Shown here in pieces: positions 10,048 through 15,263 of a DNA stretch of 64,000 nucleotides. The notes under the pieces were generated by a model. It searched no databases. It saw only the letters and a list, made by a program, of their open reading frames with translations, and was not told the DNA's origin. Each line of letters begins with the position of its first letter. The stretch's first letter is position 1. Source of the stretch: Collinsella sp. An307 (GTDB taxonomy: Bacteria > Actinomycetota > Coriobacteriia > Coriobacteriales > Coriobacteriaceae); NCBI RefSeq assembly GCF_002161805.1, contig NZ_NFIP01000006.1, forward strand, positions 62,001 through 126,000. The letters are read 5' to 3'. The position numbers and the translations under genes were made by a program.

Positions 10048-10124
10048 TGGTCGCGGGGGCAGGATTTGAACCTACGACCTCCGGGTTATGAGCCCGGCGA
10101 GCTACCAGACTGCTCCACCCCGCA
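10048..10124 (-). tRNA. Initiator tRNA-Met (anticodon CAT)
   Basis: Read on the minus strand: acceptor TGCGGGG with CCCCGCG, discriminator A and encoded CCA. The anticodon loop CTCATAA sits on stem CCGGG/CCCGG. The three consecutive G-C pairs next to the anticodon loop, and a 1-72 position that is not a Watson-Crick pair (U-G), mark it as the initiator rather than the elongator tRNA. Confidence 0.95.
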
Positions 10125-10258
10125 ATGTCTGGATGCGCCTTTGCGCAAGAGAGTATATTACGCTTCCGCATGCGCGATTGCAAGCCGCCAGCCAAAGGTT
10201 GTGAAGGCTGCTCCACAATAGGGCCGGCGGGCGGCTGCGAACGCGCTGCGCAGGCAGG

Positions 10259-10453
10259 TTAGCGCTCGAGCTTCTCCTCACGGGCGGCAAGGGCCTGCTT
10301 GAGCGCATCGAGGTCGCGCTCGGTGCGCTTGGCGCGGCGCGACAGGACAAACGCGTAGACCGCAAGCGCGAGCCAAATGCCCACGTAGGCAGCGATAACA
10401 AAGGGAGCGGCGGGCAAAACGGTCGAGTAGACCTCGGCAAGAATGGGATCCAT
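10259..10453 (-). CDS. ccmD: CcmD-like small heme exporter protein
   Basis: A 64-aa protein with one membrane helix (FVIAAYVGIWLALAVYAFVL) followed by a basic then charged helix (RRAKRTERDLDALKQAL). This is the typical CcmD layout of a short N-terminus, one helix and a positively charged cytoplasmic tail. It begins 3 bp after the ccmC stop codon and closes the ccm operon. CcmD holds CcmE to the CcmABC complex and helps release heme-loaded CcmE. Confidence 0.8.
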   Translation of the reverse strand: MDPILAEVYSTVLPAAPFVIAAYVGIWLALAVYAFVLSRRAKRTERDLDALKQALAAREEKLER

Positions 10454-10456
10454 GGG

Positions 10457-11446
10457 TTAGACCTCCTGAGAGGACGGGGCGGACTGATCGGAATCGCGGG
10501 TCGCGTCTGCTGCGGGGGCAGCATTTGAACCTACGACCTCCGGGTTATGAGCCCGGCGAACATCGGGTGCGGCGGCAGGGGCAACGTCTGCCGCGGGGGC
10601 GCTGAGCTTGGCGCCGGCGGCGCGCAGGCGCTCGAGGGCCTCGTCGGCGGCGGCGCGCTCACGCCAAGCATCCTGCTCCTCAAGGCGCTCCTTCAGCTCC
10701 TCCACCTCTGCAGCGTCTGAATTGATGCGAAGCGCTATGCGCGTGAGCGCAAACGCCACGAGAAGCATGCCAAAAAGCCCCAGCAAAAACGGGATGAGCA
10801 TCATGGGCGGCAGACCGCTGTCGGTGCGAAAGACCACCGGGTGAATCGAGCTCGGCACCAGGCGCGTGATGAGAAACGAGATGGGCGCGTCCACAAAGGC
10901 CACGATGCCAAACACGGCAGAGAAGCGCGCGCGGCGCTCGGGATCCTCGATTGCATTACGCAGGATAAAGTAGCCGATAACGAGCAGCATGAGGATGAAG
11001 TACGTGGTGAGGCGCGGCTCCCAAACCCACCAGACGCCCCACTCGAACCGGGTCCAAAGGTCGCCCGAGATCATGGTTGCTGCCACGAAGACGAGCGTGA
11101 CCTCCATGGCGGTTTTGGACCACACGTCAAAGCGGCGCTCCCCCGTCATGAGGAAGCGAACGGCCCAGAACGCCGCAAACGCCATGACGGCAAACGACGC
11201 CACGGCAACGGGAACGTGCAGGTAGAAGATCTTTTGGCTAAGCAGCAGCTTGGTCGTAATCTGCTGACCGGCAATGACCACCGGCTCGGAAAGCTCGGCA
11301 CCTTGCACCATGGGCGCCAACGTGAACGTCCACACGACGTCGATGAGCACGAGCAGCACCCCGAGCGCGAGCGCCGCGGGCACAAGCCTCTCGAGCGCGC
11401 CACCCGCGCGGCCGGTCCGGTCGGTTTGAAGCGTGTTGTGCGCCAC
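10457..11446 (-). CDS. ccmC: Cytochrome c biogenesis protein CcmC (heme handling), with unusual C-terminal tail
   Basis: About 329 aa with six membrane helices in residues ~15-235. The tryptophan-rich heme motif WGVWWVWEPRLT is present, as are the flanking conserved histidines (FYLHVPVA and SSIHPVVF). CcmC attaches heme to CcmE outside the membrane. GTG 11446 has AGAGG upstream and is preferred over ATG 11479, which lacks a ribosome site. The protein is ~90 residues longer than usual. The extra tail is a Glu/Arg coiled segment, then Ala/Pro-rich sequence that includes RRAHNPEVVGSN, translated from a copy of the 3' half of tRNA-fMet. Confidence 0.92.
   Translation of the reverse strand: MAHNTLQTDRTGRAGGALERLVPAALALGVLLVLIDVVWTFTLAPMVQGAELSEPVVIAGQQITTKLLLSQKIFYLHVPVAVASFAVMAFAAFWAVRFLMTGERRFDVWSKTAMEVTLVFVAATMISGDLWTRFEWGVWWVWEPRLTTYFILMLLVIGYFILRNAIEDPERRARFSAVFGIVAFVDAPISFLITRLVPSSIHPVVFRTDSGLPPMMLIPFLLGLFGMLLVAFALTRIALRINSDAAEVEELKERLEEQDAWRERAAADEALERLRAAGAKLSAPAADVAPAAAPDVRRAHNPEVVGSNAAPAADATRDSDQSAPSSQEV
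10512..10559 (-). repeat. Partial tRNA-fMet copy inside ccmC
   Basis: 48 bp match the real tRNA-fMet at 10053-10100 with one mismatch (position 10522). The segment covers the anticodon stem-loop, variable region, T-arm and most of the 3' acceptor strand, in the same orientation as the tRNA. It lacks the D-arm and 5' acceptor, so it is not a functional tRNA, and it is read in frame as residues ~296-312 of CcmC. Confidence 0.9.
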
Positions 11447-11484
11447 CTTACCTCTTTCTCTGAAGTTACCGTAATGCAACTAAT

Positions 11485-12271: not shown

Positions 12272-13109
<838 letters not shown>

Positions 13110-13123
<14 letters not shown>

Positions 13124-15263
13124 CAGCCGCCAGGAGCGGCGTGGCGCGGCGCGGCAGGGCGGCGAGCACAATGCCCGCAATGCAGATGGCTCCTCCCACC
13201 CAGTTGCAGAGGATAAGCGGGTTGACCTTGACCGAGAGCGAGAGGGATCCATCCGCGTTGAGGCCCTGGAAAGCGACGAAGAGGTCCTCCGTGGGGAAGG
13301 TGAGCACGCTCGCATGGAGCGTCTGCTGCTGCGTGGTGGCCGAGACCTCGATGGCCGGGGCGAGCGTGCCGATGGTGGCGGACTCGTCGGCAGCGCCATC
13401 CGACGCGGCGCGGCTGACCGCGAGGTCGACCGTCATGATGCGGTTGTCGTGCGCATCAAAGGTGTCGTCGATGTTCTCGACCGTGAGCGTGTAGCCGCCC
13501 GCGGTCCCCTGCGCGCCCACCTCGGCAGCCACATTTACCGTCCGTTCCTGCACAAACATGCCGGAGCCCACGAGACCCACCAGAGCAATCGCGCAGCCCA
13601 AGTGCGCGAGGTAGCCGCCGGCCTGCGCGGGCGAGCGACGGAACAGGTTCACCGGCGCCGCGAGCGCGCTGTCACCCTTGGCAAGGCGGCCGCGCACGCC
13701 GCGACCCAAAAGATAGGCGGACGAGGCAAACAGGAGCGCCGCCGCTACGAGAGAGACCTCGGCAACGGCAAGGTAGTACAGGCGCGGCCCCTGCTCGGCA
13801 AGCGCTGCCGCCGCGTCGCCGCCCGCCGCGATGATCGCGTCGTAGGCGGGGACGAGCTCGAGCGCAAAGTACGCCTCGAGCGCCACAAGCACCACCACGC
13901 CGATGAAGAGTGGCACGCGGAAGTTCCGCCAGAAGGCAGCGCCCTCGGTACGGCGCCATCCAAGCAGCGGGCACACGGCCATGAGCAGGCCAAAGAGCGC
14001 CGTCGCCGGACGCGCGACCGCGTTGTAGACGCCGGCGGAGACCACCTGACCGCCGAGCGGCAGCCAGCTCGGCAGCGCGCTCGACACCGTAAGATACGCC
14101 ACAAGGCACGCGCCCACGATGCACACCAGGTCGGTGATGTAATAGGAGCCGTTCTTGGAAAGGAGCGACTCGATCTCGTCGTCCTCGGCAAGCGCCGCGT
14201 TGCGATAGAGCAAAAGCAGCAAGAACGACAGCGCCGCAGCTATCATGATGCCGAGGAAGAAATAGGTCGAGACCGGGTCCTCGGCAAACGCATGCACCGA
14301 CTGCACAAGGCCTGAGCGGGTGATGAACGTGCCGAGCACCACAAAGATAAAGGTGATAGTGGCGGCGAAAAGGCTCCAGCGCTTGAAGACGCCGCGGCGA
14401 CGGTAAAGGGTAAAGCTGTGGATCATGGCGATGGCGGTGAGCCAGCTCATGAAGCTCGCGTTCTCGACCGCGTCCCAGGCCCAGAAGCCACCCCAACCGA
14501 GCACAACGTAGGCCCACACGGCGCCAAGCACCATGCCGATGGTGAGGAAGATGAAGCTAAAGACGGCTACGCGGTCGGCGTGCTCGACCCAGCGCGCCGA
14601 GAGGTCACCGGTGATAAGCGCGCCGATTGCATAGGCAAATGGCACGGCGCAGCCGGCGTAGCCGATGAAGGTCGCCGGCGGATGGAGGACCATCGCCCAA
14701 TGGAGCAACAGCGGGTTCATGCCGCTCGACGCCCCCGCCATGAGCGAGCCATCGGCATTGAGGTACTCGGCGGGCGTGGCGATGAAGGCGTTGTTGGCAT
14801 CGGAGAGCGCCATCGCGCAGGTGAAGAGCACGATCACAACCTCGGTCACGCCAAGGGCGGCGCAAGTGAGGGCGTCGGTCTGGCGCATGCGGCGCCAAGC
14901 GGTGGCCGCGGCAAAAAGGGAGATGAGCCAGGTCCAAAAGAGCAGCGAGCCCTGGCGGCCCGCCCACACGCCTGCGACCTGGTAGAGCACGCGCAGCGGG
15001 CTGTCGTCGACGGGGAAGTTCATCGCCACGTAGGAAAGCGTCATGTTCTCGGTAAGGAAACACACGAGAATGAGGCCGATGCAGAGCGTGAGCAGAAGCG
15101 CGTTCGCAAAGACGAGCATGAATCCTGTGTTGGCGAGGGCGCTCGCCCGCTTCTCGCCCGTGGTACCGCCGCGGGTCGCCGCCACGCTCGCCATGAGCGC
15201 CACAAACGCCACCGCGCCAACCGCGAGCGATAGGTTCTGCATGATGTTGCCGATAAGACTCAT
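13110..15263 (-). CDS. ccmF: Heme lyase subunit CcmF
   Basis: A 717-aa polytopic membrane protein of the CcmF/NrfE family. It has about 14 helices and the WWD-type heme motif (WGGFWAWDAVENASFM near residue 253). The periplasm-side C-terminal domain lies after residue ~570. CcmF transfers heme from CcmE to apocytochrome c. ATG 15263 has AGGAGAA upstream. ccmE is the gene before it. No ccmG, ccmH or ccmI gene follows, so the thiol-handling part of the pathway is missing from this operon. Confidence 0.95.

Follow-up and report, generated by a model that had tools for sequence, protein, structure and literature searches.

A tRNA-fMet segment in frame within the ccmC tail of Collinsella and its possible renewal from the neighbouring tRNA gene

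How does an inner piece of an initiator tRNA gene come to lie in frame in the protein-coding gene beside it, and why does it stay recognizable there? The question is raised by a 64 kb window of Collinsella sp. An307 (the whole stretch of DNA analysed, 64,000 nucleotides). The sequence-only reading had described a 48 bp copy of tRNA-fMet with 47 identical positions, 459 bp away in the same orientation and in frame within the C-terminus of CcmC. We recovered this direct repeat in every particular and confirmed that it is real (Table 1). Its exact part, 37 nt that occupy positions 10064-10100 in the tRNA gene, is the longest exact direct repeat of the window, and a 67-nt query against the whole genome found two places only at E <= 0.001, the tRNA-fMet gene and the ccmC block. 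ARAGORN calls the donor as tRNA-Met(CAT), and we take it to be the initiator because its anticodon stem is closed by three G-C pairs, the hallmark of that tRNA. Its first acceptor pair, T-G, departs from Watson-Crick pairing, and ARAGORN shows it in two other loci as well (L046, L051).

Table 1. Features of the ccmC–tRNA-fMet region (window coordinates)
Feature	Position	Strand	Basis
Single-copy tRNA-fMet gene (anticodon CAT), presumed donor	10048..10124	-	ARAGORN; sole full genome match at E <= 0.001
Donor segment, tRNA bases 25-72	10053..10100	-	Direct repeat
Small ORF (64 aa) at the ccmD position, after ccmC and before tRNA-fMet	10259..10453	-	Pfam CcmD E 0.017, below cut-off
ccmC (cytochrome c assembly membrane protein), extended low-complexity C-terminal tail	10457..11479	-	Pfam PF01578
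tRNA-derived block in ccmC, in frame (RRAHNPEVVGSN)	10512..10559	-	47/48 vs tRNA; 10523-10559 exact (tRNA 25-61)

Throughout, tRNA bases are numbered linearly over the 77-nt gene, with the anticodon at 35-37, so that linear base 39 corresponds to standard position 38. The final 11 nt of the 48-nt copy, from the lone mismatch onward, may be native ccmC tail rather than tRNA sequence, because a similar GCCCCCGC motif (GCCCCCGCGGCAGACG) is found in ccmC itself, some 80 nt upstream of GCCCCCGCAGCAGACG, the end of the copy; the tRNA-derived part may thus be just bases 25-61. Stray tRNA fragments were also sought elsewhere in the genome with a loose variable-loop/T-arm pattern, which gave 50 matches at three or fewer mismatches against 18 in a reversed control. 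Nine of them had at most one mismatch; eight of these lay within tRNA genes and the ninth was the ccmC block. No long stray copies of the window's two tRNA-Ser genes were seen.

The recipient gene encodes 340 residues (start codon provisional) with a clear Cytochrom_C_asm domain (Pfam E 9e-23). It stands at the end of a ccmE-ccmF-ccmA-ccmB-ccmC array, followed by the small ORF, a weak ccmD candidate by position, and then by tRNA-fMet. The listed open frames of ccmA (12272-13399) and ccmF (13110-15263) overlap by 290 nt, and the true ccmA start is probably further downstream. Residues 298-340 of CcmC have predicted pLDDT values below 50 and no secondary structure in a model built from a 14-sequence alignment (mean pLDDT 64.6), so that the tail appears disordered in the model. 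The tRNA segment can be read through in just one of its three frames, and ccmC uses that one; any surviving in-frame copy must therefore use the same frame.

We compared the ccmC C-terminus and the tRNA-fMet locus among relatives, as the sequence-only reading had proposed. The genus sample comprised nine genomes at species level, the source genome (G000) included, and ccmC was matched in seven of them; it was not found in G002 and G007 (89 and 81% complete). In five of the seven, the ccmC tail contains a tRNA-fMet block in frame, covering tRNA bases 25-72 in G000, 35-63 in G005 and G006, and 32-63 in G001 and G003. The ccmC tail of G004 has no clear block; an in-frame resemblance there (GACGTTGGTTCACAT), compared with 1000 codon shuffles, has p 0.06, the lowest value among 15 block-free tails. 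In G008, where ccmC is split across contigs with the gap between them unread, the block is absent from the last 31 codons before the stop. Beyond the genus, the ccmC tails of 14 genomes from other genera of the family gave no match better than chance (p 0.11 to 1.0, 1000 codon shuffles). In 12 of the 14, ccmC is still followed by tRNA-fMet at a distance of 0.3-1.2 kb; the distance is about 1.7 kb in G030, and in G027 the tRNA gene is elsewhere. The block is present in four other species of the genus and absent from the tails examined elsewhere: it predates G000, yet it is not a part of all ccmC orthologues, the case that the earlier reading had named as refuting it.

A tree of four Ccm proteins (1399 columns, 12 genomes), in which all nine inner branches are well supported, resolves the genus as ((G008,(G001,G003)),(G004,(G000,(G005,G006)))), and block presence on this tree needs at least two label changes. 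The distance from the block end to the stop is exactly 21 codons in G000, G005 and G006 and 17 in G001 and G003, which suggests a single original site within each branch.

The block is conserved far beyond its surroundings. In the eight distant pairs of genomes, the 27 nt common to all five are identical at 25 or 26 positions, and the flanks (60 nt upstream and everything downstream to the stop) agree at 44-60% of the sites in an uncertain alignment that has as many as 84 gap columns. The concatenated ccm genes of these pairs have dS values of 0.68-1.10. The close pairs G005/G006 (dS 0.11) and G001/G003 (dS 0.48) share 27 and 25 of the 27 positions. Block and flank differ with Fisher p values of 7e-4 to 1e-7 in the distant pairs and 0.11, not significant, in the two close ones, all to be read as post hoc tests on non-independent pairs. 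The third-base pattern given the amino acids is also improbable by chance (P 5e-5 to 2e-4 in five distant pairs and 4e-3 in G001/G003, with G006 left out and rare-codon counts small). The rare codons GTA, GGT, TCA and AAT are retained in the block, and at comparable sites elsewhere in the distant pairs GTA was kept at 0 of 5-9 and TCA at 0 of 2-3. A conserved RNA element at the block is unlikely; the folds predicted for the block region of the five species share no pairing by eye.

One base complicates this picture. The tRNA-fMet gene sequence is identical in all five block-bearing genomes, and linear base 39 of the block is C instead of A in G005, G006, G001 and G003. C39 is absent from every tRNA-fMet gene read in the analysis. 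A copy in G131 (G131:C1:1032071), 10.6 kb from a tRNA-fMet-like match, has C39 together with another mismatch and is a possible source type for the C39 of the ccmC blocks. Seven matching stretches in viral contigs all have A39, and two of them (L072, L075) are partial 3' copies that resemble attachment sites. A search of 395 genomes of the order gave no CATACCCC match outside the genus among the matches listed.

The explanation that we favour, tentatively, is that the ccmC block is a local copy from the adjacent single-copy tRNA-fMet gene and owes its lasting likeness to the tRNA mainly to renewed copying. Within the genus, an inner segment of the tRNA gene would have been copied into the dispensable, disordered tail of ccmC, where it could be tolerated because its sole open frame was the frame used. 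The suggestion of the earlier reading that a local recombination gave CcmC a tRNA-derived tail fits what was observed. Renewal from the tRNA gene some 430-460 bp away, whether through template switching or ectopic conversion, would have happened at least once, most recently in G000. Traffic would run one way because the tRNA cannot drift, and because it would be lost to any deletion between the repeats or to conversion in the reverse direction. We infer this mechanism, with its direction and recurrence, from several features of the block. As expected of ectopic conversion, the recipient stays donor-like while its flanks diverge. Although G000 is nested with G005 and G006, its copy is the longest and the closest to the tRNA, which would be the pattern expected of renewal and which renewed copying would account for. 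The presence of another inner fragment, distinct from the ccmC block, near tRNA-fMet in G027 and G086 also counts in its favour. Against simple conversion, the C39 common to four species would be erased by a full conversion; since C39 is absent from the tRNA-fMet genes read, these species point to either partial copying tracts or selection on an inherited block. The identical run remaining in them is at most 24 nt, which is short for RecA-type conversion.

The best of the competing explanations starts from the use of tRNA-fMet by integrative elements, and the expectation that this tRNA is a target of integration holds for the family. Of 65 family genomes searched, 61 gave a locus with a full tRNA-fMet gene and at least 1 kb upstream, and at least 14 of these 61 have, besides the full gene, a partial copy that extends to base 74 or beyond; the count is a lower bound, as pattern matches with up to three mismatches were followed and a few three-mismatch ones left out. 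Such copies start at base 26-40 and run to base 77, with one exception (9-77), and they look like the product of integration at tRNA-fMet. Integrase genes were checked in G004 and G086 only. In G004 such a copy lies 27 kb from tRNA-fMet, next to a tyrosine integrase (Phage_integrase, E 1e-20); the integrated element at this tRNA is 27 kb long (L131, L053, C15 ~106,450-133,500). Three genomes have at least two 3' copies each (G068, L115 and L116; G069, L117; G063, L110), 14-33 kb from the tRNA in the first two and on another contig in the third, suggesting tandem elements. In G085 a second, near-full copy of bases 9-77 lies 1.9 kb from the complete gene (L122 1500-1568).

Copies ending before base 74 are found in eight of the 61 genomes, namely the five ccmC blocks and G025, G027 and G086. 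The degenerate copy in G025 (L142 1779-1850) runs on beyond the 3' end of the tRNA, as in an attachment copy that has decayed, and illustrates how such copies can decay. G027 has an empty site, an inverted 25-58 fragment about 120 bp upstream of tRNA-fMet (L113 4480-4513). In G086 the matching site holds an insert of 20,728 bp with tRNA-core copies at its bounds (L124 4181-4233, L125 1509-1530), and an ORF beside one end of the insert weakly matches Phage_integrase (E 4.6e-5, below cut-off). Once the G086 flanks are joined, they can be aligned to the G027 site; the core is conserved there, and the flanks on either side of it are gappy. Because the insert is bounded by core copies and matched by the empty site, this inner fragment probably served once as an attachment site. 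Its limits (25/26 to 58/59) lie close to those of the exact part in G000 (25-61).

From these observations one could argue that the ccmC block is itself a minimal attB, kept at the DNA level as a spare or decoy landing site for tRNA-fMet integrases. The hotspot itself, the G086 insert in an inner tRNA fragment with its empty counterpart, the nearly equal limits of that fragment and the G000 exact part, and the presence of C39 in one attachment-type copy in G069 (L117) and in the G131 copy all speak for it. However, no element lies in any ccmC gene examined, the block has changed internally in G001 and G003 (bases 49 and 48), and we know of no host benefit, which counts against it. On balance we regard such a role as unlikely.

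Improbable, in our judgement, is that pieces of tRNA-fMet entered ccmC independently in two or three lineages, too recently for decay. The two or more label changes on the tree speak for such events, as does the absence of the block from G004 and from the visible part of the G008 tail, and the lone open frame would impose the same frame every time. Against this, C39 in both branches and the equal stop spacing in G000, G005 and G006 point to common descent.

Selection at the protein level, on a tRNA-derived peptide (H-N/T-P-E-V-V-G-S-N) that gained a function in CcmC, is improbable. Nine in-frame codons with few amino-acid changes (N/T, V/G) persist across five species in a tail that is otherwise poorly alignable, which speaks for such selection, but it leaves the retained rare codons unexplained. 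G004 and other genera do without the block, and the tail is unstructured in the model.

The sequence-only reading had also offered a scar of mobile-element integration and excision at tRNA-fMet, which we consider very unlikely. Elements do use this tRNA in the family, G004 included, and the G000 match stops only two bases short of the discriminator. However, the ccmC copy is located 5' of the tRNA, at a spacing of 459 bp with no integrase in between, which speaks against a scar, and the blocks of the four relatives stop at base 63, whereas attachment-type copies elsewhere reach the CCA end. Islander (PMC4383910) defines tDNA islands by filters on configuration, length, integrase and internal fragments: a 3' fragment lies downstream of the tRNA in the same orientation, with 2-200 kb and an integrase gene between the copies, and a 3' deletion site is exempt from the internal-fragment filter. 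Set against these filters as described there, the ccmC block shares the orientation, being a direct repeat, but it is upstream, in ccmC, and the 459 bp between the copies hold the ccmC end and the small ORF, so that the filters on configuration, length and integrase would reject it. The internal-fragment filter would reject the blocks of the four relatives, which end at base 63 of 77; the G000 block, ending at base 72 near the exempted deletion site, is borderline. Weakest of all, an assembly error as the source of the G000 repeat, which a short repeat beside a tRNA and the break of the draft relative G008 within its ccmC tail might suggest, is extremely unlikely because four more genomes carry similar, yet non-identical, blocks.

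Several known systems resemble the ccmC block in part. Gene conversion and template switching occur between nearby short repeats, and the two near-identical direct repeats 459 bp apart, one of them under strong constraint, are of this kind; here, however, an essential tRNA gene would be copied into a protein-coding tail, and the shared C39 is unexplained. Rickettsia palindromic elements are found in frame in genes, and CcmC likewise tolerates non-protein sequence in frame; unlike those elements, the block is not dispersed, and each of the five genomes has it once, next to the tRNA gene it comes from. With the attachment copies of tDNA islands, as in the Islander account (PMC4383910), it has in common that it is a partial tRNA copy near its tRNA and that elements use tRNA-fMet in relatives; it differs in its place on the 5' side, inside a protein gene, with no element or integrase between. 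The Thermococcales pTN3 integrase is reported to mimic homologous recombination on segments as short as 104 bp (PMC5495485). A tyrosine integrase could thus in principle exchange homologous stretches, but that minimum exceeds the length of the ccmC repeat. A literature search that covered few subscription papers found nothing on tRNA-fMet pieces in ccmC.

What the block means for these bacteria depends on which process maintains it. It is a doubtful proposition that relatives of Collinsella keep minimal tRNA-fMet attachment cores near the tRNA as host-borne spare landing sites, the ccmC copy included. One genus would have such a core in frame in its ccmC tail, and another would have one upstream of the tRNA in inverted orientation; in ccmC, the copy would be a selected attachment site hidden inside coding sequence, and the block would be linked to how integrative elements find safe sites. 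If renewed copying from the tRNA is instead the correct explanation, a tRNA gene keeps writing its own sequence into a neighbouring protein while synonymous sites change heavily. The block would then be a rare, dateable case of RNA-gene sequence turned protein sequence, through one-way traffic driven by an essential donor.
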